Assembly: GCA_037783545.1 (NCBI GenBank)
Contig: JBBELK010000827.1
Coordinates: forward strand, 124,001 to 188,000
From: Henricia sp. BOLD:AAB3569
Taxonomy: Eukaryota; Echinodermata; Asteroidea; Spinulosida; Echinasteridae
Length of the DNA: 64,000 nt
Direction of reading: 5' to 3'
Positions 27,290-51,900 of the stretch are shown piece after piece. A model generated the notes under the pieces. It made no database searches, had not been told where the DNA came from, and saw only the letters and a program-made list of their open reading frames with translations. A program made the translations under genes and the position numbers. Positions within the stretch are counted from its first letter, which is position 1. Every line of letters starts with the position of its first letter.

Positions 27290-27463
27290 CATTCCCAGGT
27301 GGTCTCCCACCGAAGTACTGACCGAGCCCAACGTTGCTTAACTGCGGTGATCAGACGGGAACCGGTGTATTCAATGTGGTGTGGACGTAGACGAATGGTT
27401 AAAAGGTTTACGTAATTGTAAACGTTTACCGATGAACAATATTTTACTAGACAAAAAAAAAGT

Positions 27464-28946: not shown

Positions 28947-28950
28947 AAAA
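28947..28950 (-). terminator. Pol III T-run terminator (example unit)
   Basis: The - strand reads GTAGGCACTTTTGTTC, so a TTTT lies three bases after the mature 3' end. The same GGCACTTTTGTT follows most units; some have a longer or slightly changed run. Confidence 0.6.
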
Positions 28951-28952
28951 GT

Positions 28953-29070
28953 GCCTACGACACTCGGTATTCCCAAGTGGTCTCCCACCGAAGTACTGAC
29001 CGAGCCCAACGTTGCTTAACTGCGGTGATCAGACGGGAACCGGTGTATTCAATGTGGTATGGTCGTAGAC
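28953..29070 (-). rRNA. 5S rRNA-like gene, near-consensus copy
   Basis: 118 nt, near the majority sequence of the whole array. Compared with textbook animal 5S it keeps GTCTACGACCATACCAC, TCTGATCACCGCAGTTAAGC and CCTGGGAATACCGAGTG. It differs at ACTTCGGTGGG, where animals usually have ACTTGGATGGG. In helix II, base 18 cannot pair with base 60 (A against C), a feature shared by the copies compared. RNA polymerase III would read it from the internal control region and stop in the TTTT that follows. Confidence 0.75.
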
Positions 29071-30527
29071 GAATGCTTAAAAGGTTTACATAAATGTAAA
29101 CGTTTACTGAAGAACGATTTTTTTCTGGACAAAACAAAAGTGCCTACGACACTCGGTATTCCCAAGTGGTCTCCCACCGAAGTGCTGACCGAGCCCAGCG
29201 TTGCTTAACTGCGGTGATCAGACGGGAACCGATGTATTCAATGTGGTATGGTCGTAGACGAATGCTTAAAAGGTTTACATAATTGTAAACGTTACTGAAG
29301 AACAATATTTTACTCGACAGAACAAATTTGCCTACGACACTCGGTATTCCCAGGTGGTCTCCCAACGAAGTACTGACCGAGCCCAACGTTGTTTAACTGC
29401 GGTGATCAGACGGGAACCGGTGTATTCAATGTGGTGTGGTCGTAGACGAATGCTTAAAAGGTTTACATAAATGTAAACGTTTACCGAAGAACAATATTTT
29501 ACTCAAAACAAAAGTGCCTACGACACTCAGTATTCCCAAGTGGTCTCCCACCGAAGTGTAAACGTTTACTGAAGAACAATATTTTACTCGACAGAACAAA
29601 AGTGCCTACGACACTCGGTATTCCCAAGTGGTCTCCCACCGAAGTACTGACCAAGCCCAACGTTTCTTAACTGCGGTGATCAGACGAGAACCGGTGTATT
29701 CAATGTGGTATGGTCGTAGACGAATGCTTAACAGTTTACATAATTGTAAACGTTTACTGAAGAACAATATTTTACTCGACAGAACAAAAGTGCCTACGAC
29801 ACTCGGTATTCCCAGGTGGTCTCCCAACGAAGTAGGCCTACTGACCGAGCCCAACGTTGCTTAACTGCGGTGATCAGACGGGAACCGGTGTATTCAATGT
29901 GGTGTGGTCGTAGACGAATGCTTAAAAGGTTTACATCAATGTAAACGTTTACCGAAGAACAATATTTTACTCAAAACAAAAGTGCCTACGACACTCATTA
30001 TACTCAAACTTCAAAGGAAACACAGAGAGACTGCCAGGTTTTGTGTGTATCTTGCCACAGCTTCAATGTTTTAATCAACGTTACAACCGGAATACCAAAG
30101 ATTAAGGGCAAACCGGTAACCTAACATTAATCATTATGCGGTACCCATGACCACAAAAAAACAGCAACGTGATTGTGATACCCAAGACCACAGTTCAGAA
30201 ACAAGTAGTGATACCCAATGACCACTATCAACAACGGCCGTTGTGTAAGCAAATAAAATCCAACAAAATTCAGTAAAGAACAACAAATGTGCTAAACTTG
30301 AGCACTTGATAACCACACTTAATTGCCCCTCCTGTGAGGCTCAATCATGTCAAAATCAACTAGCAAAATACAATATGCAGCCCCTACCGCTGGCACATGA
30401 AGTAGGGGTATAGCCCGAGTGGAACATCACAGGCTATAAATTCAAGAATAAATGTTTGGAGTTGTTTGATCTCCCCATTGGTTATAAAACTGGATAAGCC
30501 CGTGTGGCACCTCACGGGCACATTAAC

Positions 30528-31803
30528 CCAGCTAACACATAACGTTCTGCGAACGTTCGCTGAATGTTCGTTTTTGGTCACGTTCGTTTTGAACGTCGAG
30601 GGGACGTTCCCCGAACGTTCGTGGAAGTTACGTTCGTCTTGAACGTCTAGGGGACGTTCTGCCGACGTTTGAATCTAACGTTAGACTATAACGTTCTAAA
30701 AACGTTATTTAACAACGTTCGGAGAACGTTTGTTTTTAGACACATTCGTTTTGAACGTCGAGGGGACGTTCTGTGGACGTTTGAATCTAACGTTGCACTA
30801 TAACGTCCTAAGAACGTTTTTTAATAACGTTCGGAGAATGTTCGTTTCTGGTCACGTTCGTTTTAAACGTCGAGGGGACGTTCTGTGGACGTTTGGATCT
30901 AACGTTGCGATATAACGTTCTAAGAACGTTTTTTAATAATGTTCGGAGAAAGTTCGTTTTTAGTCACGTTCGTTTTGAACGTCGAGGGGACGTTCCGCGG
31001 ACATTTGAATCTAACGTTACACTATAACGTTCTAAGAACGTTTTTTAATAACGTTCTGAAAAAGTTCGTTTTTGGTTAGTTTGTTTTGAACGTCGAGGGG
31101 ACGTTATGCGGACGTTAGAATCTAACGTTGCAGTGTAACGTTCTAAGAACGTTCCGAGAACGTTATTAACAAAGCAGATTGCGTGGAGAAATTTTTTCCG
31201 TAAATTTCACGAAAAAATGCGTTGTTTTAAGCTTTACGTTGTAACCACGCTCTGCATGATTTCAAGTGTATGTACTTTTGTATTTAAAACACATCTATAG
31301 TCTAAAAAGGTAAGATTTGCAAGAAATAATATTTAAAAATGTGGTTTCCAATGTCCGCCATTACCGCCAACTGTGACTACATACGAAGGAAATTCAAGGA
31401 GTATATATACAAAGCGTACTTACTATACGTAGTAAGAGGAAGTGACTGGTATCAAGAGCACTGGACTGCAGGTGAGAGATTAGTTAATATGTAAATAACA
31501 CATTGAAAATAGTCCGATTACGTCATGATTACATCACAATTGCGTCACAGTAAAGCAGTTGTAAGTTCAATTGATACGTCCTCTGAACGTCTTTTTGTAA
31601 CGTTCGTTTCTAACGTTCAGAGGACGTCCAGAGAACGTCCCCCGTACGTTCGCGGAACGTTCGGAGGACGTTAGCTTTGAACGTGCCGAGGACGTCCAGA
31701 AAACTCCACACAATTACGTTCCCCGGACGTTCATTCCTAACGTTCCGTGAACGTTCAGCTAACGTTCGGGGAACGTTCGGGGGACGTTATTTGGTTAGCT
31801 GGG
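30528..31803. mobile_element. Harbinger-type non-autonomous element with internal minisatellite
   Basis: The ends CCCAGCTAAC and GTTAGCTGGG are perfect inverted repeats, flanked by TAA on both sides. The empty site is visible in the sister repeat at 32872 onward (CACATTAAGTTCCG), which proves insertion with a 3-bp TAA duplication, as PIF/Harbinger elements make. The interior is largely a minisatellite of about 110 bp rich in AACGTT (about five units, 30580-31150) plus related sequence at 31580-31790. It encodes no transposase. Confidence 0.85.
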
Positions 31804-33013
31804 TAAGTTCCGTTATGATAACATTAGTTTTTATTTAAACCTATCGATTTACCAAATCAGTATGGAGCTCGAACCCTTCTGAGGCATCAAAATTTGCCAA
31901 CTGTTTCCCAAAAGCCAATTAAAAGTCAACTTAGAATTGTCCTGCTTCCCTCCAGCACAGGAGGAATGTAGGGGAGGTGGTGGGATTTTTGTTGAAGCAA
32001 ACGTTGATGTTAATTGATTGAAGTCGTGACTGAAAATGGCGATTTCCGCAAAGCTGCTGATTCATTGCGCAGTCTCGCTGCAACCCCTTGCGCTGATTGG
32101 TTGACGCAGGATCCTTGCAGGGCTCATAAAAGGGAGACGTGTTATCTCACGTCCGCAATGGCCGTGCACGACCGTAAAGGCCGGGAGTTTGCACACGGCA
32201 CGCAAGCAATGCCAACACTCCCCAGGATCCCTAATTTGCATACTGCAGCAGGGCACCCTCAGAAAGCGTCTACCACGCAAGCAAATTTTCGAGCAGGTTT
32301 TTCGTGTAGTATAATAAATTTTACCCATGATGTGGTAAAATGTCTTATACTCAAACTTCAAAGGAAACACAGAGAGACTGCCAGGTTTTGTGTGTATCTT
32401 GCCACAGCTTCAATGTTTTAATCAACGTTACAACCGGAATACCAAAGATTAAGGGCAAACCGGTAACCTAACATTAATCATTATGCGGTACCCATGACCA
32501 CAAAAAACAGCAACGTGATTGTGATACCCAAGACCACAGTTCAGAAACAAGTAGTGATACCCAATGACCACTATCAACAACGGCCGTTGTGTAAGCAAAT
32601 AAAATCCAACAAAATTCAGTAAAGAACAACAAATGTGCTAAACTTGAGCACTTGATAACCACACTTAATTGCCCCTCCTGTGAGGCTCAATCATGTCAAA
32701 ATCAACTAGCAAAATACAATATGCAGCCCCTACCGCTGGCACATGAAGTAGGGGTATAGCCCGAGTGGAACATCACAGGCTATAAATTCAAGAATAAATG
32801 TTTGGAGTTGTTTGATCTCCCCATTGGTTATAAAACTGGATAAGCCCGTGTGGCACCTCACGGGCACATTAAGTTCCGTTATGATAACATTAGTTTTTAT
32901 TTAAACCTATCGATTTACCAAATCAGTATGGAGCTCGAACCCTTCTGAGGCATCAACATTTGCCAATCGCGAGAAGCGCGACCCACAGAAAAATTCGGGC
33001 TCATACAAGAAAC

Positions 33014-33430
33014 TTAGAGCAGTGACAATATGCAGCAGCGCAAATTCCCCCGAAATGCGGTGTTGCCCTCAAGAGAGAGGTGAACCCCGTCCCGTCGGTA
33101 GAGGTTATGAGCAGACCCATGAAATTGTGGGTGCTCAAGCACATGGATTCCAAGTCCACGGCAATGTGACCTGGCCCAACAATTAGTTGCACGTCGAATA
33201 TGTTCCATTGATCTTTGCGAATTGGCGCCAAAATAAAAAAAAAGTCGTGGCAAAATGCAAGACCAGACCAGTGTGGTATTGGGAAACATATTTCGACACT
33301 CTGCCAGCAAGATGGCAATTCTTTGCCGAATCGAAAAGAAATCGACTTGCCCCAAGTCATTGGACCCAATGTGCAAAATAATGATGCGCGCGGAACCAAC
33401 ATCGCCTAACAAACTGGGCAATTCATGCAA
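33014..33430 (-). pseudogene. SGNH-hydrolase-like fragment of the fossil retroelement
   Basis: The - strand encodes a fragment with IIILHIGSNDLGQ, WSCILPR and YRRDGVHLSLEG, which are the GxND block and the late DGxHLS block of SGNH/GDSL hydrolases. Domains of this kind are known as an extra gene in Ngaro-type retroelements. It is a broken remnant of the element at 29998-33460, not a host gene. Confidence 0.6.
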
Positions 33431-33460
33431 GTGTGCTCCACTTTGCCCTTTCCATCGGAC

Positions 33461-36400
33461 CTGTATCCCACCGAAGTACTGGCCGAGCCCAACGTTGCTT
33501 AACTGCGGTGATCAGACGGGAACCGGTGTATTAAATGTGGTATGGTCGTAGACGAATGCTTAAAAGGTTTGCGTATTTATAAACGTTTACTGAATAACAT
33601 TATTTCACTCGACAAAACAAAAGTGCCTACGACACTCGGTTTTCCCAGGTGGTCTCCCACCGAAGTACTGACCGAGCCCAACGTTGCTTAACTGCGGTGA
33701 TCAGACGGGAACCGGTGTATTCAAGGTGGTATGGTCGTAGACGAATGCTAAAAAGGTTTGCGTAATTTTAAACGTTTACTGGAGAACAATATTTTACTCG
33801 ACAAAACAAAAATGCCTACGACACTCGGTATTCCCAGGTGGTCTCCCACCGAAGTACTGACCGAGCCCAACGTTGCTTAACTGCGGTGATCAGACGGGAA
33901 CCGGTGTATTCAATGTGGTATGGTCGCAGACGAATGATTAACAGGTTTGCGTAATTTTAAACGTTTACTGAAGAACAATATTTTACTCGACAAAACAAAA
34001 GTGCCTACGACACTCGGTATTCCCAGGTGGTCTCCCACCAAAGTACTGACCGATACAACGTTTCCTAACTGCGGTGATCAGACGGGAACCGGTGTATTCA
34101 ATGTGGTATGGTCGTAGACGAATGCTTAACAGGTTTGCATAATTTTAAACGTTTACTGAAGAACAATATTTTACTCGACAAAACAAAAGTGCCTACGACA
34201 CTTGGTATTCCCAGGTGGTCTCCCACCGAAGTACTGACCGAGCCCAACGTTGCTTAACTGCGGTGATCAGACGGGAACGGGTGTATTCAATGTGGTATGG
34301 TCGTAGACGAATGCTTAAAAGGTTTACAAAATTGTAAACGTTTACTGAAGAACAATATTTTACTCAAAACAAAAGTGCCTACGACACTCGGCATTCCCAG
34401 GTGGTCTCCCACCGAAGTACTGACCGAGCCCAACGTTGCTTAACTGCGGTGATCAGACGGGAACCGGTGTAATCAATGTGGTGTGGTCGTAGACGAATGC
34501 TTGAAATGTTAACATAATTGTAAACGTTTACTGAAGAACAATATTTTACTCGACAATGTGGTAATGCTTAAAAGGTTTGCGTAATTATAAACATTTACTA
34601 AAGAACAATATTTTACTCAAAACAAAAGTGCCTACGACACTCGGTATTCTCCCACCGAAGTACTGACCGAGCCTAACGTTGCTTAACTGCGGGAGGTGAT
34701 CAGACGGGAACCGGTGTATTCAATGTAGTGTGGTCGTAGACGAATGCTTAAAGGTTTACATAATTGTAAACGTTTACTGAAGAACAATATTTCACTCGAC
34801 AAAACAAAAGTGCCTACGACACTCGGTATTCCCAGGTGGTCTTCCACCGAAGAACTGACCGAGCCCAACGTTGCTTAACTGCGGTGACCAGATGGGAACC
34901 TGCGTATTCAATGTGGTATGGTTGTAGACGAATGCTTAAAAGGTTTGCGTAATTATAAACGTTTACTGAAGAACAATATTTTACTCAAAACAAAAGTGCC
35001 TAAGACACTCGGTATTCCCAGGTGGCCTCCCACCGAAGTACTGGCCGAGCCCAACGTTGCTTAACTGCGGTGATCAGACGGGAACCGGTGTATTCAATGT
35101 GGTATGGTCGTAGACGAATGCTTAAAAGGTTTGCGTATTTATAAACGTTTACTGAATAACATTATTTCACTCGACAAAACAAAAGTGCCTACGACACTCG
35201 GTTTTCCCAGGTGGTCTCCCACCGAAGTACTGACCGAGCCCAACGTTGCTTAACTGCGGTGATCAGACGGGAACCGGTGTATTCAAGGTGGTATGGTCGT
35301 AGACGAATGCTAAAAAGGTTTGCGTAATTTTAAACGTTTACTGGAGAACAATATTTTACTCGACAAAACAAAAATGCCTACGACACTCGGTATTCCCAGG
35401 TGGTCTCCCACCGAAGTACTGGCCGAGCCCAAGGTTGCTTAACTGCGGTGATCAGACGGGAATCGGTGTATTCAATGTGGTATGGTCGTAGACGAATGCT
35501 CAAAAGGTTTACATAAATGTAAACGTTTACTGAAGAACAATATTTTACTCGACAGAACAAAAGTGCCTACGACACTCGGTATTCCCAAGTGGTCTCCCAC
35601 CGAAGTACTGACCGAGCCCAACGTTTCTTAACTGCGATGATCAGACGGGAACCGGTGTATTCAATGTGGTGTGGTCGTAGACGAATGCTTAAAAGGTTTA
35701 CGTAATTGTAAACGTTTACTGATGAACAATATTTTACTAGACAAAACAAAAGTGCCTTCGACACTCGGTATTCCCAGGTGGTCTCCCACCGAAGTACTGA
35801 CCGAGCCCAACGTTGCTTAACTGCGGTGATCAGACGGGAACCGGTGTATTCAATGTGGTATGGTCGTAGACGAATGCTCAAAAGGTTTACATAAATGTAA
35901 ACGTTTACTGAAGAACAATATTTTACTCGACAGAACAAAAGTGCCTACGACACTCGGTATTCCCAAGTGGTCTCCCACCGAAGTACTGACCGAGCCTAAC
36001 GTTGCTTAACTGCGGGCGGTGATCAGACGGGAACCGGTGTATTCAATGTAGTGTGGTCGTAGACGAATGCTTAAAGGTTTACATAATTGTAAACGTTTAC
36101 TGAAGAACAATATTTCACTCGATAAAACAAAAGTGCCTACGACACTCGGTATTCCCAGGTGGTCTTCCACCGAAGAACTGACCGAGCCCAACGTTGCTTA
36201 ACTGCGGTGACCAGATGGGAACCTGCGTATTCAATGTGGTATGGTTGTAGACGAATGCTTAAAAGGTTTGCGTAATTATAAACGTTTACTGAAGAACAAT
36301 ATTTTACTCAAAACAAAAGTGCCTAAGACACTCGGTATTCCCAGGTGGCCTCCCACCGAAGTACTGGCCGAGCCCAACGTTGCTTAACTGCGGTGATCAG

Positions 36401-37661
36401 ACGGGAACCGGTGTATTCAATGTGGTATGGTCGTAGACGAATGCTTAAAAGGTTTGCGTATTTATAAACGTTTACTGAATAACATTATTTCACTCGACAA
36501 AACAAAAGTGCCTACGACACTCGGTTTTCCCAGGTGGTCTCCCACCGAAGTACTGACCGAGCCCAACGTTGCTTAACTGCGGTGATCAGACGGGAACCGG
36601 TGTATTCAAGGTGGTATGGTCGTAGACGAATGCTAAAAAGGTTTGCGTAATTTTAAACGTTTACTGGAGAACAATATTTTACTCGACAAAACAAAAATGC
36701 CTACGACACTCGGTATTCCCAGGTGGTCTCCCACCGAAGTACTGGCCGAGCCCAAGGTTGCTTAACTGCGGTGATCAGACGGGAATCGGTGTATTCAATG
36801 TGGTATGGTCGTAGACGAATGCTCAAAAGGTTTACATAAATGTAAACGTTTACTGAAGAACAATATTTTACTCGACAGAACAAAAGTGCCTACGACACTC
36901 GGTATTCCCAAGTGGTCTCCCACCGAAGTACTGACCGAGCCCAACGTTTCTTAACTGCGATGATCAGACGGGAACCGGTGTATTCAATGTGGTGTGGTCG
37001 TAGACGAATGCTTAAAAGGTTTACGTAATTGTAAACGTTTACTGATGAACAATATTTTACTAGACAAAACAAAAGTGCCTTCGACACTCGGTATTCCCAG
37101 GTGGTCTCCCACCGAAGTACTGACCGAGCCCAACGTTGCTTAACTGCGGTGATCAGACGGGAACCGGTGTATTCAATGTGGTATGGTCGTAGACGAATGC
37201 TCAAAAGGTTTACATAAATGTAAACGTTTACTGAAGAACAATATTTTACTCGACAGAACAAAAGTGCCTACGACACTCGGTATTCCCAAGTGGTCTCCCA
37301 CCGAAGTACTGACCGAGCCCAACGTTTCTTAACTGCGATGATCAGACGGGAACCGGTGTATTCAATGTGGTGTGGTCGTAGACGAATGCTTAAAAGGTTT
37401 ACGTAATTGTAAACGTTTACTGATGAACAATATTTTACTAGACAAAACAAAAGTGCCTTCGACACTCGGTATTCCCAGGTCGAGCCCAACGTTGCTTAAC
37501 TGCGGTGATCAGACGGGAACCGGTGTATTCAATGTGGTATGGTCGTAGACGAATGCTCAAAAGGTTTACATAAATGTAAACGTTTACTGAAGAACAATAT
37601 TTTACTCGACAGAACAAAAGTGCCTACGACACTCGGTATTCCCAAGTGGTCTCCCACCGAA
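33461..37661 (-). repeat. 5S rRNA-like tandem array, block 2
   Basis: About 22 units of 189 bp on the - strand. A seven-unit higher-order repeat of 1323 bp is visible: 34683-36005 and 36006 onward match closely, as do 35378 against 36701 and 35567 against 36890. A two-unit (378-bp) block is repeated again at the right end. A shortened unit lies near 34553 (spacer joined to ATGTGGTAATGC). The block ends at nucleotide 79 of a 5S unit, where the LINE is inserted. Confidence 0.9.
33814..33931 (-). rRNA. 5S rRNA-like gene, block 2 example
   Basis: 118 nt and close to the array majority, with one visible change in the 5' helix (GTCTGCGACC). Terminal helix and internal control region are retained. 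Confidence 0.7.
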
Positions 37662-37820
37662 TTTTTATTTATTTTTTTTTTTTTTTTCTGAGAGGAGTTA
37701 GACTCCATTTATTAACACATCTCCATGCATACAGTATCTACAATTTACGTACTTCGTACATAATTAAGTTACTTTATATGTATGTATATGATAAAAATTG
37801 CAACAATAGGACGTCTGAAA

Positions 37821-40466
37821 CTAGAATGCATAGTTCAATTGTTCCCCATCCATCCAACAAATAGCCCTATTTTGAGTGTAAATTTGTTCAAAATCCCTGC
37901 GGTGTAATCTTTTGACTTCCATACGTAAGTATTGTTTTAGTTGTCTTTTATATACACCAAGTATGTCAGGAACGTATGTATTTTTCTCTTGCGCTGCAGA
38001 CAGAGATATTTGAACCCTTAAGTTCCAAATAACACGAAAAACCTTACAAAAAAGCACACAAGCAGTACTATTAATTCCTGGACCAATACCAAGGACTCTA
38101 CAAATATCATTTAAATAAAAATGTTTGTCATCACCGTATTTTCGGAGCAAATTTTCAACAAAATTCCATGTCTCAAAGGTTTTACAGCAATAAATAAAAA
38201 GGTGCTCTGTAGTCTCTTGATTTTCATTACAAATTAAACATCTGTCATTTTCAGTAATCCCTATTTTATACAATATATCTCTTGTTGGCAAAATCCTGTG
38301 TTTAATTTTAAACCATAAATCTCTATCATTTGGATCAATTAATTTACTATATCCCCTTTTCCAACTTAAGGTCCAGTTCGGAGGAGAAGTCCTATTACAA
38401 ATTATTTCCCATTTTTGTTCGGCTTTGGGTTTTACAAAGGTCTTTATTACCAAGTTTCTATACATGAATTTCATTAATGATTTGTTAAGAACATAATAAT
38501 CTGCATCATTTTCATAATTACTAATTTCTAGCATATTGCATATATGGTTTTCTGGTCCACTCCTTGTTTCCTTTAAAAGGTTTGGTCTAATATTTACTCT
38601 TAAATCATTCATTGTTCTGGTAACAGTACCAGGTCTAATATCATATTGTTTGGAAATCAATGTGAGTGACTTGAGTTTATCACCTGACATAACATCACCT
38701 AGTTTTTTTATTCCATTTTCACTTAAAATGTTACCAACAAGTTTTTTTTTTTTGTTGCCCGTTAGTAGGGCATTTTGCCACAGTGGGACGTTGTGTGCTT
38801 CTTGCTTACAGGAGATAACTAAGTTAATACGTCCTCCGCCGTTATGAAATGCTTTAATTACCTCTCGATAAAATTCACTGGTATTTAAGGCTGTAGGGTA
38901 ATTCCCTAAAACATACCAACCTAAACCTTTAGCACTAGCTCTCTTGATCCAATAATCAAAATATTGTTTCCATTTTCCAGTACATGTGCTAAAACGGGTG
39001 AACCAATTTAATTTCAGACAAGTTAATCTATGTTTTACATTCAAAACCTCTGTACCTCCTCTTTCCTTAGGACCTCTGACTGTATCTCTGTTAATTTGAT
39101 CAGGTTTACTGTTCCAATAAAAGTCCCAAATACATTTATCCATTTTTTTTATTGAATCATCATTACATGGCACAACACTTCCCACATAATTAATACTAGC
39201 TCCAGCATAAGTGTTGATGATGACTGCTTTTCCTTTTAAAGTTAAATTCCTTCCCTTAAAACTGTTAAAAACACTCTTAATCTTGTTTATTCTGGGGTCC
39301 CAGTTGTCAGACTGGGTTACTTCATTGCCAATATAAACCCCTAAAATCTTATTCTTGTCATTGACCCAATTATACCCCCCTGGGCAATCTGTCCTCGATT
39401 TCCAGGTTCCAAGCCAGAGCCCTGTTGATTTCTGAATATTTGTTTTGGATCCCGTGCCTTCATTGTATATATTTAGAATGTTTGCTAAAATCGGAAAATC
39501 TTCATCACGAGAAATAAAAACCGTCGTGTCATCAGCATGCTGTATTAATTTGACTTGATCATCAGTGTATGGAATTGGGATACCCGTTAAGTTTGTATTA
39601 TTTCTAATTAGACAGGCCAATCCTTCTGCACAGATGGTGTACAAAAGCGGTGACAAGGGGCAACCCTGCCGGATACCTCTGGTTACGTCAAAGGGACGAG
39701 TTATATAGTTATTCACAATGACGCAACTTTTCGGTCTGCTGTACAAAACCATTATGTAATCAATGAACCCCTGAGGAATGCCGAGCTTATTCATAATTTC
39801 ATACATGTAATCCCATTCTATCCTGTCAAAGGCTTTTTCTTGATCAATACTTAGGAGCCCCCCTTGTTTATTGTTCATGTTAAGGTCATCTACAACATCT
39901 CTTAGAATCATTATATTATCGTGAATATTTCTACCTGATACCCCACTGCTTTGCTCTTCTCCAATCAAATTAGGCATACATTTGCGAAGTCGGTTAGTTA
40001 AGACTTTAGCAAGTATTTTGTAATCTACTGTCAATAAACTAATTGGACGCCAATTTTTTAGGTCTTCCCTATCCTCTTTGTTTTTGTATATTAATCTAAT
40101 AAGAGCAGTGCTCATTGTATATGGAAGTGAACCTCCTTCTTTGCATTCTTGAAAAACACTCAAAAGATCATCTTTAAGAATAGTCCAAAACTTGAGATAA
40201 AACTCTACTGTCAGCCCATCAATACCGGGTGATTTATCTTTATTCATTTGCTGGAGAGCAAGTGTAATTTCAGCTCCTGAAATATTACTTTCCAAAATCT
40301 CAGGTTCCTCGATTTCGTGTGAGTTGACATCATCTATAATTGTTTGTTGCTCATGGGGGTCAGTGCCATTAGTAGAATATAACTGGGAGTAAAACTCATT
40401 GATACGCTTAACAATATATCTAAATTCTGTAAGTGGGACGCCCTCAGCGTCTTTTATATTTGCCAT
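37821..40466 (-). CDS. LINE ORF2, reverse transcriptase and C-terminal zinc motif
   Basis: 881 open codons. RT motifs in order: KSPGIDGLTVEFY (about 78-90), NWRPISLLTVDYKILAKVL (138-156), SIDQEKAFDRIEW (motif A, 206-218), GIRQGCPLSPLLY (motif B, 264-276) and QHADDTTVF (catalytic ADD at 311-313). A C-terminal CLICNENQETTEHLFIYC (about 742-760) is the CX2CX8HX4C motif found in L1/Tx1 LINEs. The protein would reverse-transcribe the LINE RNA at the nicked target. The sequence style (KAFDR, ADDT, C-terminal CCHC) places it in the L1/Tx1 group rather than the CR1, RTE or R2 groups. Confidence 0.9.
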   Translation of the reverse strand: MANIKDAEGVPLTEFRYIVKRINEFYSQLYSTNGTDPHEQQTIIDDVNSHEIEEPEILESNISGAEITLALQQMNKDKSPGIDGLTVEFYLKFWTILKDDLLSVFQECKEGGSLPYTMSTALIRLIYKNKEDREDLKNWRPISLLTVDYKILAKVLTNRLRKCMPNLIGEEQSSGVSGRNIHDNIMILRDVVDDLNMNNKQGGLLSIDQEKAFDRIEWDYMYEIMNKLGIPQGFIDYIMVLYSRPKSCVIVNNYITRPFDVTRGIRQGCPLSPLLYTICAEGLACLIRNNTNLTGIPIPYTDDQVKLIQHADDTTVFISRDEDFPILANILNIYNEGTGSKTNIQKSTGLWLGTWKSRTDCPGGYNWVNDKNKILGVYIGNEVTQSDNWDPRINKIKSVFNSFKGRNLTLKGKAVIINTYAGASINYVGSVVPCNDDSIKKMDKCIWDFYWNSKPDQINRDTVRGPKERGGTEVLNVKHRLTCLKLNWFTRFSTCTGKWKQYFDYWIKRASAKGLGWYVLGNYPTALNTSEFYREVIKAFHNGGGRINLVISCKQEAHNVPLWQNALLTGNKKKKLVGNILSENGIKKLGDVMSGDKLKSLTLISKQYDIRPGTVTRTMNDLRVNIRPNLLKETRSGPENHICNMLEISNYENDADYYVLNKSLMKFMYRNLVIKTFVKPKAEQKWEIICNRTSPPNWTLSWKRGYSKLIDPNDRDLWFKIKHRILPTRDILYKIGITENDRCLICNENQETTEHLFIYCCKTFETWNFVENLLRKYGDDKHFYLNDICRVLGIGPGINSTACVLFCKVFRVIWNLRVQISLSAAQEKNTYVPDILGVYKRQLKQYLRMEVKRLHRRDFEQIYTQNRAICWMDGEQLNYAF

Positions 40467-41287
40467 AGCATTATTCTTGGTTCTTTGTTTTTCGATAGCA
40501 AAAAGAACTTGCTAGGTTTTTCACCTTCAGACTTATTTTTCAAATGTGTCCTTACACGAGCCTTTTCCCACTCGTTAGTTTCAATGGTTTTCAGCTGTTG
40601 TTCAAGGCGATTTAATTCATCAGTATTATGGTTTGGATTATTTGTGAGATCCCTATACTTCGTTTGAACAGCCTTTGTCTGTTGATTATATTTAAGTGAT
40701 TTTTCTTTACCATACTCTTTAAGAATTTCTTTAAGTTTGCTTTTCCCCATTTCCCACCAGTCAGTGATGGTGTTATAGCAGAATTGTTTGGTTTGCCAGT
40801 ATTTCCAAAAATGTGTTACTCTGTTAACACATTCCGGATCTTCAAGGTTATCGTTATTACACATCCATCTGCCTGGTCCGCTTACTGTTTGTTTGTCAAT
40901 TAACTTCATTAAAATGAGGTTGTGATCAGAAAACCCGACAGCATTAATAAGTATGTGTTCAAGGTTGCATATTAATTTGGCCGACATTAGGAAGTAATCA
41001 ATTCTGCTACTTGTTTTAGTACTTTTATTGTAATGTGTGTAGCCCAACTCACTAGGATGGATTGAACGCCACACATCAATCAAATTATTTTGTTGAACCA
41101 ATTTTAGAAAGGCAATACTACTCTTTTCCTTACTCATACCAAGATCAATATTACAATTGAAATCTCCTCCAATAATTAGATTTTCAGAATCAACAAGGAC
41201 ATCACAAAGTTTCCCAAAAAAGCAGTTTCTGGGGCCGAGAGCATTTGGAGCATACACTGAAGCAACAGTAATTTTTTGTTTGTCCAA
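40454..41287 (-). CDS. LINE ORF2, endonuclease middle and linker
   Basis: Contains ASVYAPN, LIIGGDFNCNID (conserved GDFN), SRIDYFLMS and GFSDHNLILMKL (conserved SDH), the remaining endonuclease motifs, and then a linker. The frame is open upstream of the first ATG at 41287 as far as the slip near 41385. It ends about 12 bases past the start of the reverse-transcriptase frame, so a second one-base slip lies near 40460-40480. Confidence 0.8.
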   Translation of the reverse strand: MDKQKITVASVYAPNALGPRNCFFGKLCDVLVDSENLIIGGDFNCNIDLGMSKEKSSIAFLKLVQQNNLIDVWRSIHPSELGYTHYNKSTKTSSRIDYFLMSAKLICNLEHILINAVGFSDHNLILMKLIDKQTVSGPGRWMCNNDNLEDPECVNRVTHFWKYWQTKQFCYNTITDWWEMGKSKLKEILKEYGKEKSLKYNQQTKAVQTKYRDLTNNPNHNTDELNRLEQQLKTIETNEWEKARVRTHLKNKSEGEKPSKFFLLSKNKEPRIMLWQI

Positions 41288-41382
41288 GTTTAGTTCGCCA
41301 ATAATAAATCTGCCTTCATCATCTCGCTTGATGTTGGTGAGTTTTGCTGTAATTTTATTCGAAATAAGAATTCCAACCCCCC

Positions 41383-41625
41383 TTAATTTTTTCTCAGTCC
41401 ATGACTAAAGGCGATTTCACCACCCCACTGCTTACTCCAAAAGCTCTCGTCCTCTTTTTCACTGTGAGTCTCTTGCAAAAGAGCAACATCGATTTTCCTT
41501 CTATGCATGTAATTAAATATTGTATCTCTTTTCATATTATTTCTCAATCCTTTGCAATTGAGTGTTACTACATTAAGCGCCATAATGAAGAGACTCACAG
41601 TGAATAAAACACCTTTCATAAACAT
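41383..41625 (-). CDS. LINE ORF2, N-terminal endonuclease part
   Basis: Encodes the start of the AP-like endonuclease: LNVVTLNCKGLRNNMKRDTI and VALLQETHSEKEDE, where the QETH glutamate is the conserved metal ligand. The frame ends in a run of six A near 41390; the following KLRGVGILISNKI continues one base out of frame, so a single-base slip in the A run separates it from the next part. Confidence 0.75.
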   Translation of the reverse strand: MFMKGVLFTVSLFIMALNVVTLNCKGLRNNMKRDTIFNYMHRRKIDVALLQETHSEKEDESFWSKQWGGEIAFSHGLRKN

Positions 41626-41643
41626 TAAGGATAATTTACCATT

Positions 41644-43464
41644 TTATTTTTTCTGGGTTGATGTACACTCGCGACCAACTGGTTGTGCTTGAATTTCTCT
41701 GTTCCTGCCTCTGCCCCGTCCTCTGGGTTGTGGGTAGGGTGTTGTTCTCCCAATTCGTTTCTTGTGACTTTTTAGTTCTTTCCATGGTCCTTGCTCGTCA
41801 CTTCCCTCGGCAGGTACGTTTTCAGGGTTTGTATTTGTTTCGTGGTGCTTTTCGTGGGTTATTTTCCCAGAGGGGTGTTGTTTGACTCGGTCTGCCCAGG
41901 ATGGACTTGGACTATCCTCGCGGTCGTGACTTTCAGCATCTTGCGTCGTTTCCATATCTTCAAAGTCTTCTGCTCTAGGTTCATTTACGGGGGCTTTGGC
42001 TGTATACATGTTGTGATCTTCAGGAAGATTTGTGGCTGGAGTGTTTTTATTTGCTAGTTTGTTCGACTTTTGAACTGGAGTTTTGTCTTGGTTGGTTTTT
42101 GAGGGAGTTCCTTTCCCATTTTGAGTGTTACCCTTCTTGTTGTTCTTGTCACCTTGACTCGTATCCTCTTTATCTTTGCGAGTGTCCTCTTTATCTCTGC
42201 GAGTGTCCTCTTTATCTTTGCGAGTGTCCTCTTTATCTTTGCGGGTGTCCTTTTTATCTTTGCGAGTGTCTTCTTTATCTTTGCGAGTGTCCTCTTTATC
42301 TTTGCGAGTGTCCTTTTTATCTTTGCGTGTGCCTTCCTCATCTTTGCGGGTGCCCTCTTTATCTTTGCGGGTGTCCTCTTTATCTTTGCGAGTGTCCTCT
42401 TTATCTTTGCGAGTGTCCTCTTTATCTTTGCGAGTGTCCTCTTTATCTTTGCGGGTGTCCTTTTTATCTTTGCGAGTGTCCTCTTTATCTTTGCGAGTGT
42501 CCTCTTTATCTTTGCGAGTGTCCTTTTTATCTTTGCGAGTGTCCTTCTCATCTTTGCGAGTGTCCTCCTCATCTTTGCGAGTGTCCTCCTCATCTTTGCG
42601 AGTGTCCTCCTCATCGTTGGTGGTGTCCTCTCCATCTTTGGTGGTGTCTTGCTCATCTTTGGTGGTGTCTTGCTCATCTTCGGTAGTGTCTTCCTCATCT
42701 CTGGTCATGTCCTCCTCGTCCTCTGTGTTGGTGTCTTCGTCTTGGGTGATATCGTCCTCATCTGAACTTGCATTCTCCTCTTCCGGTATGACAATCGTAG
42801 GACTTTCCAGCTCCACCTTTTCCTGTCGGTCATGCCAAGTTGATCTGTGGTCATAACTACCACAAACAAAGCACCTGCCTTTTAGTTCACAGTCTCTTGC
42901 AAAATGGCCTGGTTTCTGACAAATTTTGCACGTTTTTTGCTGTCCACGGTATTTCATGGGGAGTGAGAAGCCGGCTATTTTCACAAAACTGGGTATTGGC
43001 TTTTTAACATTATTGACAAGCATACTCCTAACTCCAGTTGCAATGTTAGGGTCGAAATCATGCACTTGGTGCCTAACATTAACCACAGTCCCGTACGGCA
43101 ATAATGCACCAATGACGGTATTATCGCTCATCTCATAAGGCACCTTTGCGTAAACAACAAGCGAATTTTGAATGTTGGCTCGTTCACATTGCATTAGTAG
43201 ATCTTGTATGATTAGCCCTCGCTGAGCTATTTGTTCGCAGTCCCGTTCGTTGTTGAAAGTCACATTGTACCAGCCGCTGTCGAGGGGGGCGATGCATTTT
43301 GTGGTTTCTACTGTGCCTAATTCCTTCCTTATGGCGTCATACACTTCTCTTGAAATTACATTTCCGAGATCCTTCGGATAAAACTTGATGGTATTCGGTC
43401 TCCGTAGTACCTGACGGTTAGCCTTGGCGGCATACATCGTGGCCAAGATGGCGGCTACACGCAA
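41644..43464 (-). CDS. LINE ORF1 protein with CCHC zinc knuckles and acidic repeat
   Basis: 606 codons, uninterrupted. The N-terminal part (about residues 20-175) has the look of an ORF1 RNA-binding region (TIKFYPKDLGNVISREVYDA). CKICQKPGHFARDC at 179-192 is a CX2CX4HX4C knuckle; CFVCGSYDHRSTWH at 198-211 is a CX2CX4HX4H variant. Residues of about 230-430 are a low-complexity tract dominated by a seven-residue EDTRKDK repeat, encoded by a 21-bp minisatellite. The tail is basic (GRGRGRNRE). ORF1 proteins coat the LINE RNA. The start at 43464 is the first ATG of the frame. Confidence 0.85.
   Translation of the reverse strand: MRVAAILATMYAAKANRQVLRRPNTIKFYPKDLGNVISREVYDAIRKELGTVETTKCIAPLDSGWYNVTFNNERDCEQIAQRGLIIQDLLMQCERANIQNSLVVYAKVPYEMSDNTVIGALLPYGTVVNVRHQVHDFDPNIATGVRSMLVNNVKKPIPSFVKIAGFSLPMKYRGQQKTCKICQKPGHFARDCELKGRCFVCGSYDHRSTWHDRQEKVELESPTIVIPEEENASSDEDDITQDEDTNTEDEEDMTRDEEDTTEDEQDTTKDEQDTTKDGEDTTNDEEDTRKDEEDTRKDEEDTRKDEKDTRKDKKDTRKDKEDTRKDKEDTRKDKKDTRKDKEDTRKDKEDTRKDKEDTRKDKEDTRKDKEGTRKDEEGTRKDKKDTRKDKEDTRKDKEDTRKDKKDTRKDKEDTRKDKEDTRRDKEDTRKDKEDTSQGDKNNKKGNTQNGKGTPSKTNQDKTPVQKSNKLANKNTPATNLPEDHNMYTAKAPVNEPRAEDFEDMETTQDAESHDREDSPSPSWADRVKQHPSGKITHEKHHETNTNPENVPAEGSDEQGPWKELKSHKKRIGRTTPYPQPRGRGRGRNREIQAQPVGRECTSTQKK
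42160..42660 (-). repeat. 21-bp minisatellite inside LINE ORF1
   Basis: More than twenty units of TATCTTTGCGAGTGTCCTCT (+1), read on the - strand as EDTRKDK. Because the unit is a multiple of three and lacks stops in most frames, several long spurious frames also run across it. Confidence 0.9.
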
Positions 43465-45866
43465 GTCTCCTGTACTTGACCACAGGAAGTAGGGCCAAAG
43501 GCCCTCGAAAAACAGTCAATCTCACCTCAATCCGGTGTTCTTAGAGTTTGTACTGAAGATGAAACTATTAGCTGTGCAAAAGGAGCAGGATATAGGCCTC
43601 AAAAAGACATAAATTTAAGAGCCGAAAAACTATCCGTGTCTACTGACCGAGCCCAACGTTGCTTAACTGCAGTGATTAGACGGGAACCGGTGTATTCAAT
43701 GTGGTATGGTCGTAGACGAATGCTTAACAGTTTACATAATTGTAAACGTTTACTGAAGAACAATATTTTACTTGACAGAACAAAAGTGCCTACGACACTC
43801 GGTATTTCCAGGTGGTCTCCCAACGAAGTACTGACCGAGCTCAACGTTGCTTAACTGCGGTGATCAGACGGGAACCGGTGTATTCAATGTGGTGTGGTCG
43901 TAGACGAATGCTTAAAAGGTTTACTTAATTGTAAACGTTTACTGATGAACAATATTTTACTAGACAAAACAAAAATGCCTACGACACTCGGTATTCCCAG
44001 GTGGTCTCCCATTGAAGTACTGACCGAGACTAACGTTGCTTAACTGCGGTGATCAGACGGGAACCGGTGTACTCAATGTGGTATATGGTGGTAGGCGAAT
44101 GCTTAAAAGGTTTACATAAGTGTAAATGCTTACTGAAGAACAATATTTTACACGACAAAACAAAAGTGCCTACGACACTCGGTATTCCCAGGTGGTCTCC
44201 CACCGAAGAACTGACCGAGCCCAACGTTGCTTAACTGCGGTGACCAGATGGGAACCTGCGTATTCAATGTGGTATGGTCGTAGACGAATGCTTAAAAGGT
44301 TTGCGTAATTATAAACGTTTACTGAAGAACAATATTTTACTCAAAACAAAAGTGCCTAAGACACTCGGTATTCCCAGGTGGCCTCCCACCGAAGTACTGG
44401 CCGAGCCCAACGTTGCTTAACTGCGGTGATCAGACGGGAACCGGTGTATTCAATGTGGTATGGTCGTAGACGAATGCTTAAAAGGTTTGCGTATTTATAA
44501 ACGTTTACTGAATAACATTATTTCACTCGACAAAACAAAAGTGCCTACGACACTCGGTATTCCCAGGTGGTCTCCCACCGAAGTACTGACCGAGCCCAAC
44601 GTTGCTTAACTGCGGTGATCAGACGGGAACCGGTGTATTCAAGGTGGTATGGTTGTAGACGAATGCTAAAAAGGTTTGCGTAATTTTAAACGTTTACTGG
44701 AGAACAATATTTTACTCGACAAAACAAAATTGCCTACGACACTCGGTATTCCCAGGTGGTCTCCCACCGAAGTACTGGCCGAGCCCAAGGTTGCTTAACT
44801 GCGGTGATCAGACGGGAATCGGTGTATTCAATGTGGTATGGTCGTAGACGAATGCTCAAAAGGTTTACATAAATGGAAACGTTTACTGAAGAACAATATT
44901 TTACTCGACAGAATAAAAGTGCCTACGACACTCGGTATTCCCAAGTTGTCTCCCACCGAAGTACTGACCGAGCCCAACGTTTCTTAACTGCGATGATCAG
45001 ACGGGAACCGGTGTATTCAATGTGGTGTGGTCGTAGACGAATGCTTAAAAGGTTTACGTAATTGTAAACGTTTACTGATGAACAATATTTTACTAGACAA
45101 AACAAAAGTGCCTTCGACACTCGGTATTTCCAGGTGGTCTCCCACCGAAGTACTGACCGAGCCCAACGTTGCTTAACTGCGGTGATCAGACGGGAACCGG
45201 TGTATTCAATGTGGTATGGTCGTAGACGAATGCTCAAAAGGTTTACATAAATGTAAACGTTTACTGAAGAACAATATTTTACTCGACAGAACAAAAGTGC
45301 CTACGACACTCGGTATTCCCAAGTGGTCTCCCACCGAAGTACTGACCGAGCCCAACGTTTCTTAACTGCGGTGATCAGACGGGAACCGGTGTATTCAATG
45401 TGGTATGGTCGTAGACGAATGCTTAACAGTTTACATAATTCTAAACGTTTACTGAAGAACAATATTTTACTCGACAGAACAAAAGTGCCTACGACACTCG
45501 GTATTTCCAGGTGGTCTCCCAACGTAACGAAGTACTGACCGAGCCCAACGTTGCTTAACTGCGGTGATCAGACGGGAACCGGTGTATTCAATGTGGTGTG
45601 GTCGTAGACGAATGCTTAAAAGGTTTACTTAATTGTAAACGTTTACTGATGAACAATATTTTACACGACAAAACAAAAGTGCCTACGACACTCGGTATTC
45701 CCAGGTGGTCTCCCACCGAAGAACTGACCGAGCCCAACGTTGCTTAACTGCGGTGATCAGACGGGAACAGGTGTATTCAATGTGGTATGGTCGTAGACGA
45801 ATGCTTAAAAGGTTTACAAAATTGTAAACGTTTACTGAAGAACAATATTTTACTCAAAACAAAAGT

Positions 45867-45984
45867 GCCTACGACACTCGGTATTCCCAGGTGGTCTCCC
45901 ACCGAAGTACTGACCGAGCCCAACGTTGCTTAACTGCGGTGATCAGACGGGAACCGGTGTATTCAAGGTGGTATGGTCGTAGAC
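45867..45984 (-). rRNA. 5S rRNA-like gene, block 3 example
   Basis: 118 nt. It belongs to the subgroup with C at position 18 (AAGGTGG on the + strand), which also fails to pair with base 60. All other landmarks of the family are kept. Confidence 0.7.
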
Positions 45985-48900
45985 GAATGCTAAAAAGGTT
46001 TGCGTAATTTTAAACGTTTACTGGAGAACAATATTTTACTCGACAAAACAAAAATGCCTACGACACTCGGTATTCCCAGGTGGTCTCCAACCGAAGTACT
46101 GGCCGAGCCCAAGGTTGCTTAACTGCGGTGATCAGACGGGAATCGGTGTATTCAATGTGGTATGGTCGTAGACGAATGCTCAAAAGGTTTACATAAATGT
46201 AAACGTTTACTGAAGAACAATATTTTACTCGACAGAACAAAAGTGCCTACGACACTCGGTATTCCCAAGTGGTCTCCCACCGAAGTACTGACCGAGCCCA
46301 ACGTTTCTTAACTGCGGTGATCAGACGGGAACCGGTGTATTCAATGTGGTATGGTCGTAGGCGAATGCTTAAAAGGTTTACATCAGTGTAAATGCTTACT
46401 GAAGAACAATATTTTACACGACAAAACAAAAGTGCCTACGACACTCGGTATTCCCAGGTGGTCTCCCACCGAAGAACTGACCGAGCCCAACGTTGCTTAA
46501 CTGCGGTGACCAGATGGGAACCTGCGTATTCAATTTGGTATGGTCGTAGACGAATGCTTAAAAGGTTTGCGTAATTATAAACGTTTACTGAAGAACAATA
46601 TTTTACTCAAAACAAAAGTGCCTAAGACACTCGGTATTCCCAGGTGGCCTCCCACCGAAGTACTGGCCGAGCCCAACGTTGCTTAACTGCGGTGATCAGA
46701 CGGGAACGGGTGTATTCAATGTGGTATGGTCGTCGACGAATGCTCAAAAGGTTTACATAAATGTAAACGTTTACTGAAGAACAATATTTTACTCGACAGA
46801 ACAAAAGTGCCTACGACACTCGGTATTTCCAGGTGGTCTCCCAACGTAACGAAGTACTGACCGAGCCCAACGTTGCTTAACTGCGGTGATCAGACGGGAA
46901 CCGGTGTATTCAATGTGGTGTGGTCGTAGACGAATGCTTAAAAGGTTTACGTAATTGTAAACGTTTACTGATGAACAATATTTTACTAGACAAAACAAAA
47001 GTGCCTTCGACACTCGGTATTCCCAGGTGGTCTCCTACCGAAGTACTGACCGAGCCCAACGTTGCTTAACTGCGGTGATCAGACGGGAACCGGTGTATTC
47101 AATGTGGTATGGTCGTAGACGAATGCTCAAAAGGTTTACATAAATGTAAACGTTTACTGAAGAACAATATTTTACTCGACAGAACAAAAGTGCCTACGAC
47201 ACTCGGTATTCCCAAGTGGTCTCCCACCGAAGTACTGACCGAGCCCTCACGTTTCTTAACTGCGGTGATCAGACGGGAACCGGTGTATTCAAGGTGGTAT
47301 GGTCGTAGACGAATGCTAAAAAGGTTTGCGTAATTTTAAACGTTTACTGGAGAACAATATTTTACTCGACAAAACAAAAATGCCTACGACACTCGGTATT
47401 CCCAGGTGGTCTCCAACCGAAGTACTGGCCGAGCCCAAGGTTGCTTAACTGCGGTGATCAGACGGGAATCGGTGTATTCAATGTGGTATGGTCGTAGACG
47501 AATGCTCAAAAGGTTTACATAAATGTAAACGTTTACTGAAGAACAATATTTTACTCGACAGAACAAAAGTGCCTACGACACTCGGTATTCCCAAGTGGTC
47601 TCCCACCGAAGTACTGACCGAGCCCAACGTTTCTTAACTGCGGTGATCAGACGGGAACCGGTGTATTCAATGTGGTATGGTCGTAGGCGAATGCTTAAAA
47701 GGTTTACATCAGTGTAAATGCTTACTGAAGAACAATATTTTACACGACAAAACAAAAGTGCCTACGACACTCGGTATTCCCAGGTGGTCTCCCACCGAAG
47801 AACTGACCGAGCCCAACGTTGCTTAACTGCGGTGACCAGATGGGAACCTGCGTATTCAATTTGGTATGGTCGTAGACGAATGCTTAAAAGGTTTGCGTAA
47901 TTATAAACGTTTACTGAAGAACAATATTTTACTCAAAACAAAAGTGCCTAAGACACTCGGTATTCCCAGGTGGCCTCCCACCGAAGTACTGGCCGAGCCC
48001 AACGTTGCTTAACTGCGGTGATCAGACGGGAACGGGTGTATTCAATGTGGTATGGTCGTCGACGAATGCTCAAAAGGTTTACATAAATGTAAACGTTTAC
48101 TGAAGAACAATATTTTACTCGACAGAACAAAAGTGCCTACGACACTCGGTATTCCCAAGTGGTCTGCCACCGAAGTACTGACCGAGCCCAACGTTTCTTA
48201 ACTGCGATGATCAGACGGGAACCGGTGTATTCAATGTGGTGTGGTCGTAGACGAATGCTTAAAAGGTTTACGTAATTGTAAACGTTTACTGATGAACAAT
48301 ATTTTACTAGACAAAACAAAAGTGCCTTCGACACTCGGTATTCCCAGGTGGTCTCCTACCGAAGTACTGACCGAGCCCAACGTTGCTTAACTGCGGTGAT
48401 CAGACGGGAACCGGTGTATTCAATGTGGTATGGTCGTAGACGAATGCTCAAAAGGTTTACATAAATGTAAACGTTTACTGAAGAACAATATTTTACTCGA
48501 CAGAACAAAAGTGCCTACGACACTCGGTATTCCCAAGTGGTCTCCCACCGAAGTACTGACCGAGCCCTCACGTTTCTTAACTGCGGTGATCAGACGGTAA
48601 CCGGTGTATTCAATGTGGTATGGTCGTAGACGAATGCTTAACAGTTTACATAATTGTAAACGTTTACTGAAGAACAATATTTTACTCGACAGAACAAAAG
48701 TGCCTACGACACTCGGTATTTCCAGGTGGTCTCCCAACGAAGTACTGACCGAGCCCAACGTTGCTTAACTGCGGTGATCAGACGGGAACCGGTGTATTCA
48801 ATGTGGTGTGGTCGTAGACGAATGCTTAAAAGGTTTACTTAATTGTAAACGTTTACTGATGAACAATATTTTACTTGACAAAACAAAAGTGCCTACGACA

Positions 48901-51900
48901 CTCGGTATTCCCAGGTGGTCTCCCATCGAAGTACTGACCGAGACCAACGTTGCTTAACTGCGGTGATCAGACGGGAACCAGTGTACTCAATGTGGTATAT
49001 GGTCGTAGGCGAATGCTTAAAAGGTTTACATAAGTGTAAATGTTTACTGAAGAACAATATTTTACACGACAGAACAAAAGTGCCTACGACACTCGGTATT
49101 CCCAAGTGGTCTCCCAACGAAGTACTGACCGAGCCCAACGTTGCTTAACTGCGGTGATCAGACGGGAACCGGTGTAATCAATGTGGTGTGGTCGTAGACG
49201 AATGCTTCAAAGGTTTACATAATTGTAAACGTTTACTGAAGAACAATATTTTACTCGACAATGTGGTAATGCTTAAAAGGTTTGCGTAATGATAAACGTT
49301 TACTAAAGAACAATATTTTACACGACATAACAAAAGTGCCTACGACACTCGGTATTCCCAAGTGGTCTCCCAACGAAGTACTGACCGAGCCCAACGTTGC
49401 TTAACTGCGGTGATCAGACGGGAACCGGTGTACTCAATGTGGTATATGGTCGTAGGCGAATGCTTAAAAGGTTTACATAAGTGTAAATGTTTACTGAAGA
49501 ACAATATTTTACACGACAGAACAAAAGTGCCTACGACACTCGGTATTCCCAAGTGGTCTCCCACCGAAGTACTGACCGAGCCCAGCGTTTCTTAACTGCG
49601 GTGATCAGACGGGAACAGATATATTCAATGTGGTATGGTCGTAGACGAATGCTTAACACTTTACATAATTGTAAACGTTTACTGAAGAACAATATTTTAC
49701 TCGACAGAACAAAAGTGCCTACGACACTCGGTATTCCCAGGTGGTCTCCCAACGAAGTACTGACCGAGCCCAACGTTGCTTAACTGCGGTGATCAGACGG
49801 GAACAGGTGTATTCATTGTGGTGTGGTCGTAGACGAATGCTTAAAATGTTTACGTAATTGTAAACGTTTACTGATGAACAATATTTTACTCGACAAAACA
49901 AAAGTGCCTACGGCACTCGGTATTTCCAGGTGGTCTCCCAACGAAGTACTGACCGAGCCCAACGTTGCTTAACTGCGGTGATCAGACGGGAACCGGTGTA
50001 TTCAATGTGGTGTGGTCGTAGACAAATGCTTAAAAGGTTTACTTAATTGTAAACGTTTACTGATGAACAATATTTTACTAGACAAAACAAAAGTGCCTAC
50101 GATACTCGGTATTCCCAGGTGGTCTCCCATCGAAGTACTGACCGAGACCAACGTTGCTTAACTGCGGTGATCAGACGGGAACCGGTGTACTCAATGTGGT
50201 ATATGGTCTTAGGCGAATGCTTAAAAGGTTTACATAAGTGTAAATGTTTCCTGAAGAACAATATTTTACACGACAGAACAAAAGTGCCTACGACACTCGG
50301 TATTCCCAAGTGGTCTCCCAACGAAGTACTGACCGAGCCCAACGTTGCTTAACTGCGGTGATCAGACGGGAACCGGTGTACTCAATGTGGTATATGGTCG
50401 TAGGCGATTGCTTAAAAGGTTTACATAAGTGTAAATGTTTACTGAAGAACAATATTTTACACGACAGAACAAAAGTGCCTACGACACTCGGTATTCCCAA
50501 GTGGTCTCCCACCGAAGTACTGACCGAGCCCAACGTTTCTTAACTGCAGTGATCAGACGGGAACAGGTGTATTCAATGTGGTATGGTCGTAGACGAATGC
50601 TTAACACTTTACATAATTGTAAACGTTTACTGAAGAACAATATTTTACTCGACAGAACAAAAGTGCCTTCGACACTCGGTATTCCCAGGTGGTCTCCCAA
50701 CGAAGTACTGACCGAGCCCAACGTTGCTTAACTGCGGTGATCAGACGGGAACAGGTGTATTCATTGTGGTGTGGTCGTAGACGAATGCTTAAAATGTTTA
50801 CGTAATTGTAAACGTTTACTGATGAACAATATTTTACTAGACAAAACAAAAGTGCCTACGACACTCGGTATTCCCAGGTGGTCTCCCATCGAGGTACTGA
50901 CCGAGACCAACGTTGCTTAACTGCGGTATTCAATGTGGTATGGTCGTAGACGAATGCTTAAAATGTTTACATAATTGTGAACGTTTACTGAAGAACAATA
51001 ATTTACTCGACAATGTGGTATGGTCGTAGACGAATGCTTAAAAAGTTTGCGTAATTATAAACGTTTACTGAAGAACAATATTTTACTCAAAACAAAAGTG
51101 CCTACGACACTCGGTATTCTCAGGTGGTCTCCCACCGAAGTACTGACCGAGCCCAACGTTGCTTAACTGCGGGCGGTGATCAGACGGGAACCGGTGTATT
51201 CAATGTAGTGTGGTCGTAGACGAATGCTTAAAGGTTTACGTAATTGTAAACGTTTACTGAAGAACAATATTTCACTCGACAAAACAAAAGTGCCTACGAC
51301 ACTCGGTATTCCCAGCTGGTCTCCCACCGAAGAACTGACCGAGCCCAACGTTGCTTAACTGCGGTGACCAGACGGGAACATGTGTATTCAATGTGGTATG
51401 GTCGTAGACGAATGCTTAAAAGGTTTGCGTAATTATAAACGTTTACTGAAGAACAATATTTTACTCAAAACAAAAGTGCCTACGACACTCGGTATTCCCA
51501 GGTGGTCTCCCACCGAAGTACTGGCCGAGCCCAACGTTGCTTAACCGCGGTGATCAGACGGGAACCTGTGTATTCAATGTGGTATGGTCGTAGACGAATG
51601 CTTAAAAGGTTTGCGTAATTATAAACGTTTAATGAAGAACAATATTTTACTCAAAACAAAAGTGCCCACGACACTCGGTATTCTCAGGTGGTCTCCCACC
51701 GAAGTACTGGCCGAGACCAACGTTGCTTAACTGGGGTGCTCAGACGGGAAACTGTGTATTCAATGTGGTATGGTCGTAGACGAATGCTTAAAAGGTTTGC
51801 ATAATTATCAACGTTTACTGAAGAACAATATTTCACTCGACAAAACAAAAGTGCCTACGACACTCGGTATTCCCAGGTGATCTCCCACCGAAGTACGGAC

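Follow-up and report, generated by a model that had tools for sequence, protein, structure and literature searches.

A long interspersed element family of the L1/Tx1 group at a fixed site in the 5S rRNA genes of a sea star, Henricia sp.

To our knowledge, Mutsu of zebrafish is the only long interspersed element (LINE) known to be specific for a nucleotide inside 5S ribosomal RNA (rRNA) genes. In the excerpts of the literature on which our comparisons rest, it is described as an element of ~5.5 kb with two open reading frames (ORFs), located in 5S rRNA genes (PMC11202950, PMC3706591). Here we analyse a LINE of ~6.0 kb which splits a 5S rRNA gene of the sea star Henricia sp. BOLD:AAB3569, within a stretch of 64,000 nucleotides (nt), hereafter the window, corresponding to positions 124,001 to 188,000 of contig JBBELK010000827.1 (assembly GCA_037783545.1, 740.7 Mb in 2104 contigs). 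The data make us highly confident that the element in the window is one copy of an echinoderm LINE family of the L1/Tx1 group, specific for 5S rRNA genes and equipped with an endonuclease of the apurinic/apyrimidinic (APE) type. We file it as a new 5S-specific family, Mutsu-like in its action.

Compared by description, Mutsu is the closest known family: it is likewise a two-ORF LINE inserted in 5S rRNA genes, but its host belongs to another phylum and the element is shorter. As far as the same partial sources go, the Tx1 clade, with its APE endonucleases, is one of three groups that account for the majority of the target-specific families reported (PMC4640811), and Keno, in U2 small nuclear RNA genes, and Dewa, in a tRNA-Leu spacer, are also sequence-specific LINEs of multicopy RNA genes, although with targets other than 5S; like the Henricia LINE, Keno has an APE endonuclease (PMC4640811, PMC3706591). 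TRE5 of Dictyostelium is described as an L1-clade LINE which also resides at genes transcribed by RNA polymerase III (Pol III), including extrachromosomal 5S genes, but which inserts 37-54 bp upstream of genes rather than at an intragenic nucleotide (PMC5911963). A Jockey-like LINE of Tribolium freemani appears regularly in 5S arrays, as observed here, but it belongs to another clade and is reported from satellite arrays with 5S, in an excerpt that names no fixed intragenic nucleotide (PMC11202950), whereas Dada-5S, also a mobile element that is specific for 5S rRNA genes, is presented as a DNA transposon and not as a LINE (PMC8869645). No echinoderm 5S-specific LINE was found in the literature among the matches listed, which comprised titles and abstract openings and few subscription journals. 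With a second host, from another phylum, it would follow that the 5S niche was colonised on a broader scale, or repeatedly.

Target site in the 5S rRNA genes

The 5S gene of Henricia sp. has 119 nt. In the window, both the LINE and the 5S genes lie in minus-strand orientation, the right flank of the LINE is 5S nt 1-77 and the left flank resumes at nt 79, with no target duplication. The initial annotation had read the flanks as one 5S unit, co-oriented with the LINE and devoid of target duplication, which our analysis upholds except for the length of the unit, corrected here from 118 to 119 nt. It had also reported a single missing base. This holds for the window copy, where the absent base is nt 78 (C), but it is not the rule of the family: the base at nt 78 is kept in 53/62 LINE-5S 3' junctions and absent in nine, including that of the window. 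The typical insertion therefore falls between nt 77 and 78 (77^78), with no target base lost.

The flank tabulation that the initial annotation had proposed was carried out from both ends of the element. With a 26-base pattern for the beginning of the LINE (≤3 mismatches), 62 matches were obtained in the assembly. The flanks were read at every match, and 60 of them were joined to 5S nt 77 in 5S-sense orientation. In these 60 the 5' flank reads GGTCAGTA up to nt 77, with a difference of one base in copy L071, and the junction consists of 5S nt 1-77 joined to GACACGGATAG. An extra copy, L149, had been fetched as one without a matched 5' end, and reaches the full 5' end with the usual joint, missed by the pattern. 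Since (G)TA is common to the 5S target and the LINE start, the 5' joint is ambiguous by 2-3 bases; the copies outside 5S with a 5' end read (n=2) likewise start with (G)TAGAC.

At the other end, a 19-base pattern of the LINE terminus (≤2 mismatches) placed 59/67 3' ends at 5S nt 78/79, some of them carrying one or two extra bases. These 3' ends were paired by position with matched LINE-5S junctions. The junction pattern itself gave 66 matches, seven of them without the LINE 3' motif; three of the seven are shortened LINEs (L136-138), and the other four, with two mismatches, were dropped as plain 5S variants, as judged by their matched letters, leaving 62 junctions. The usual 3' junction is an A-run followed by CTTCGGTGGG, and some junctions show one or two extra or changed bases at nt 78.

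An internal census with a 33-base ORF2 marker (≤3 mismatches, ends assigned by position) yielded 69 matches, 66 of them exact. Both ends lie in 5S in 46 of these copies, one end in 20 and none in three, so that 66/69 have at least one end in 5S. The three remaining copies are those on contigs C698 and C1051, outside 5S, and one at C141:18132, on a contig bearing other 5S copies. Besides C698 and C1051, the copies are spread over 15 contigs. A pattern of 29 bases for the uninterrupted 5S site (≤3 mismatches) matched 40,583 times genome-wide; at ~190 bp per site, 5S arrays would amount to ~7.7 Mb, ~1% of the assembly, and the LINE would occupy ~1 in 600 sites, as calculated from the site and ORF2-marker counts. 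Because the arrays represent ~1% of the genome while 60/62 5' ends lie in them, chance landing in 5S arrays is insufficient to explain the distribution, and even less the use of one nucleotide. The 5S-targeting family postulated in the initial annotation is thus supported by the 5' ends at one 5S nucleotide and by the marker copies with a 5S end, and copies at unrelated sites with variable target duplications were not found for the young family.

Coding capacity and group membership

The coordinates of the element, of the split gene and of the array that hosts them are given in Table 1. The window copy is 99.1-99.2% identical to two other full-length copies, L141 and L142. Its ORF2 is distributed over three frames, whereas ORF1 and ORF2 are open in both of the further full copies checked for frames (2/2, L141 and L142), with stop-to-stop frames of 616 and 623 codons for ORF1 and 1273 codons for ORF2. 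Domains were assigned on the open frames of L142, not on the window copy: Pfam detected zf-CCHC (PF00098) in ORF1, and Exo_endo_phos, RVT_1 and zf-RVT in ORF2. Among solved structures, the best match of ORF2 was human L1 ORF2p (322.8 bits), the best R2 scoring 89.2 bits. The features of the L1/Tx1 group are all present, namely two ORFs, an ORF2 with APE, reverse transcriptase and C-terminal zinc motif, and an A-tail. Hence the earlier description of ORF2 as L1/Tx1-type stands as regards APE, reverse transcriptase, zf-RVT and the closest solved structure, while the Tx1-clade label is supported in part. The family, with ORFs open in two other copies, looks young.

ORF1 contains a charged repeat of seven residues, of the TRKDKED type, at window ~42150-42620, and its frame length varies by 7 codons among copies.

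Table 1. Features of the LINE insertion and its 5S surroundings (window positions)
Feature	Position	Strand	Remarks
5S rDNA tandem array hosting the LINE	27280..63922	-	138 Rfam matches in the window; units mostly ~186-190 bp
5S rRNA nt 1-77, upstream half of the split gene	43641..43717	-	
5S rRNA nt 79-119, downstream half of the split gene	37621..37661	-	nt 78 absent in the window copy
LINE copy	37662..43640	-	both ends complete, ORF2 defective; 5' end 43640, poly(A) end 37662
ORF1, from first Met, ~597 amino acids	41644..43437	-	CCHC zinc knuckle and long charged repeat of 7 amino acids
ORF2: APE endonuclease, reverse transcriptase, zf-RVT	37821..41583	-	two frameshifts in the window copy
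3' untranslated region	37688..37820	-	ends GTCTAACTCCTCTCAG ahead of the tail
A-rich tail	37662..37687	-	interrupted A-run

Independent insertions, rival explanations and a proposed mechanism

Several observations weigh against a strictly targeted family, or against taking its copies as separate events. Two of the 62 5' ends lie outside 5S (C1051:284393 and C2:894721), as do four of the 67 3' ends (L132-135; C698, C1051, C1124 and C1398). A further 4/67 3' ends reach 5S past nt 79 or the spacer (L047, L055, L130 and L131; displaced 3' ends at C192:992188, C213:1981468, C213:1437549 and C232:1018384), and part of the 5S spacer in L061 has given way to a second A-rich run; in view of the four displaced ends and of L061, the 3' site is not absolute. 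Moreover, copy counts come from a single assembly of repetitive arrays, four loci (six rows) show an identical tail and 140-nt flank, and pairs of copies on C1253 and C455 recur at equal spacing.

The identical flanks and equal spacings, together with the identity of 66/69 matches across the ORF2 marker, are what could be expected if one chance insertion into 5S had been multiplied by unequal crossing-over and gene conversion, the LINE having no target preference. Such amplification would not be expected to generate copies with differing ends. In L136-138, which occupy the usual site, the LINE ends prematurely at a different 3' point in each copy and bears a separate tail there. Three 5'-truncated copies keep the usual 3' junction: in L147 and L148, which are probably duplicates of each other, the ORF1 repeat region (LINE position near 1204) is joined to 5S nt 37, and in L150 LINE position near 5794 is joined to 5S nt 63. 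Copy L030 has, after its tail, 5S nt 78-99 and a second A/T tail, beyond which 5S starts anew at nt 78, the simplest reading being a read-through RNA of a 5S-resident parent that re-entered another 5S gene, with template jumping as the alternative. Equally unexpected under amplification are the displaced 3' junctions, and the spread over 15 further contigs also speaks against it. Finally, 65 rows, with some loci repeated, contain 46 distinct tail-plus-flank combinations; slippage may alter tails, yet 36 distinct 140-nt flanks are present. The variant junctions largely refute the amplification of one insertion, which we consider very improbable as the origin of the family. Taken together, the differing premature tails, the shifted 3' junctions, the two joints of 5'-truncated copies and the one tail that resembles a transduction speak for many insertions, next to which array duplicates also occur.

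A non-selective LINE could also be imagined to insert anywhere, with selection sparing only the copies in huge and tolerant 5S arrays. Loss of a single gene among 40,583 5S sites should indeed be harmless. Survival bias, however, predicts copies in the spacer, in either orientation and at nucleotides throughout the 5S gene, whereas one nucleotide and one orientation were observed in 60/60 5S copies with an intact 5' end, so that this explanation is exceedingly improbable. A different question is how the site is chosen. Targeting might depend on a tether formed with factors of Pol III, or with TFIIIA, at the 5S genes, as has been proposed for TRE5-A through TFIIIB, instead of on sequence choice by the endonuclease: 5S is a Pol III gene, and the excerpt on Dictyostelium TRE5-A reports that its ORF1 protein binds TFIIIB (PMC5911963). 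As described there, though, TRE5 uses a window upstream of genes, as opposed to the single intragenic nucleotide found here, and the fixed dispersed-repeat site of the old relatives described below speaks for recognition of DNA sequence. We regard a tether as unlikely.

The preferred reading, site choice by the endonuclease of a 5S-specific LINE, suggests the following course of insertion. The ORF2 endonuclease would nick the antisense strand of the 5S gene at the 77^78 position or, in some cases, one base further on, and the freed 3' end (...CACCGAAG) would serve as primer for reverse transcription of the LINE RNA, starting in its poly(A) tail. The end of a full-length cDNA would then be joined at nt 77, where the (G)TA common to target and LINE may guide the joint, and joining at this nucleotide would leave no target duplication. 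Short cDNAs might be attached further upstream in 5S, with target sequence deleted, as in L147, L148 and L150. The fixed site and orientation, the A-tails, the absence of duplication, the variable ends and the open ORFs of two other copies are observed, while we infer the order of cleavage, the priming and the choice of site by the endonuclease, not by a Pol III factor. With its young look, a nucleotide-defined target and close relatives at another fixed target, the family allows the target choice of the endonuclease to be tested directly. As an insertion tool, such a natural APE-type enzyme with a defined 5S site could be measured against R2.

Older relatives, the 5S arrays and the mitochondrial sequence

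The copies outside 5S are old and degenerate, their longer alignment pieces being ~81-96% identical. Those on C1051, C698 and C2 occupy an identical position in one dispersed repeat (GGGCTGGTTC...), a target with 797 sites in the assembly (25-base pattern, ≤3 mismatches), and imperfect target duplications of ~12-16 bp flank the copies with both ends read (C1051 and C2). The copies on C1124 and C1398 have GCTGGTTCCA in common, the downstream sequence being another one, and seem to be a single locus in duplicate. A search with 700 bases of the C1051 copy gave 41 matches when the best 40 of 113 candidates were scored, and among the matches listed only C1051 and C698 were contigs without a 5S junction; either the old lineage is small or further members ranked lower among the candidates.

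Given that the old relatives lie mostly at one fixed repeat site and the young copies at 5S, the lineage has had two specific targets. The young look of the 5S copies does not establish the order of these targets, because array turnover alone would produce it. Tentatively, one lineage could have switched its strict target within one host line, from the repeat with duplications to 5S nt 77/78 without them, the start (G)TA matching, a scenario that we consider possible but rather doubtful. If true, it would provide a natural before-and-after pair for an APE endonuclease acquiring a new target. No resemblance of the 5S target to the second one (GGGCTGGTTCCAAATGG) is claimed here, since 534/2000 shuffles reached their local alignment score. 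Tx1L of Xenopus is a LINE specific for a site in another repeat, its target being Tx1D. In this it resembles the few old non-5S relatives described here, whereas the young Henricia family targets 5S genes without target duplication.

The 5S complement of this genome is very large, with ~40,600 gene sites in 740 Mb as counted with the 29-base core. The array in the window is interrupted a second time at 29998-33430, by a segment with an AACGTT-rich middle and direct repeats of ~0.5 kb which, by eye, start near 30003 and 32350. The block of 5S units at 56240-59552 recurs with equal scores 4370 bp away, at 60610-63922, and represents a recent duplication inside the array. The region of L150 (C142:2241210-2247500) showed two peculiarities. 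At its 5' joint, GGGTTA repeats of telomere-like type separate the LINE fragment from 5S nt 63, and another 5S gene there harbours an element of 811 bp, presumably non-autonomous and of the piggyBac type, which has the terminal inverted repeats AGGAACACGTTGCCTTC and is flanked by a TTAA target duplication.

The mitochondrial sequence of the assembly was also inspected. In cox1, 11 TGA codons are read through, 8/8 AAA codons align with Asn of the best-matching solved COX1, and the AGA codons (n=5) align with Ser in three cases and with Ala in two; these alignments indicate mitochondrial code 9 (AAA=N, AGR=S, TGA=W), that of echinoderms and flatworms. A putative nad4L ORF, named by eye, lies between cox1 and cox2, which we take to be the echinoderm gene order; code and order together point to an echinoderm host. 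In L139, a putative nad1 ORF, also identified by eye, on the opposite strand, is followed by tRNA genes ahead of cox1; such an inverted nad1 and tRNA cluster is, we assume, the sea-star order. As cox1 occurs three times on C955 with a period of 16,221 bp, this contig represents the mitochondrial genome assembled as a concatemer.

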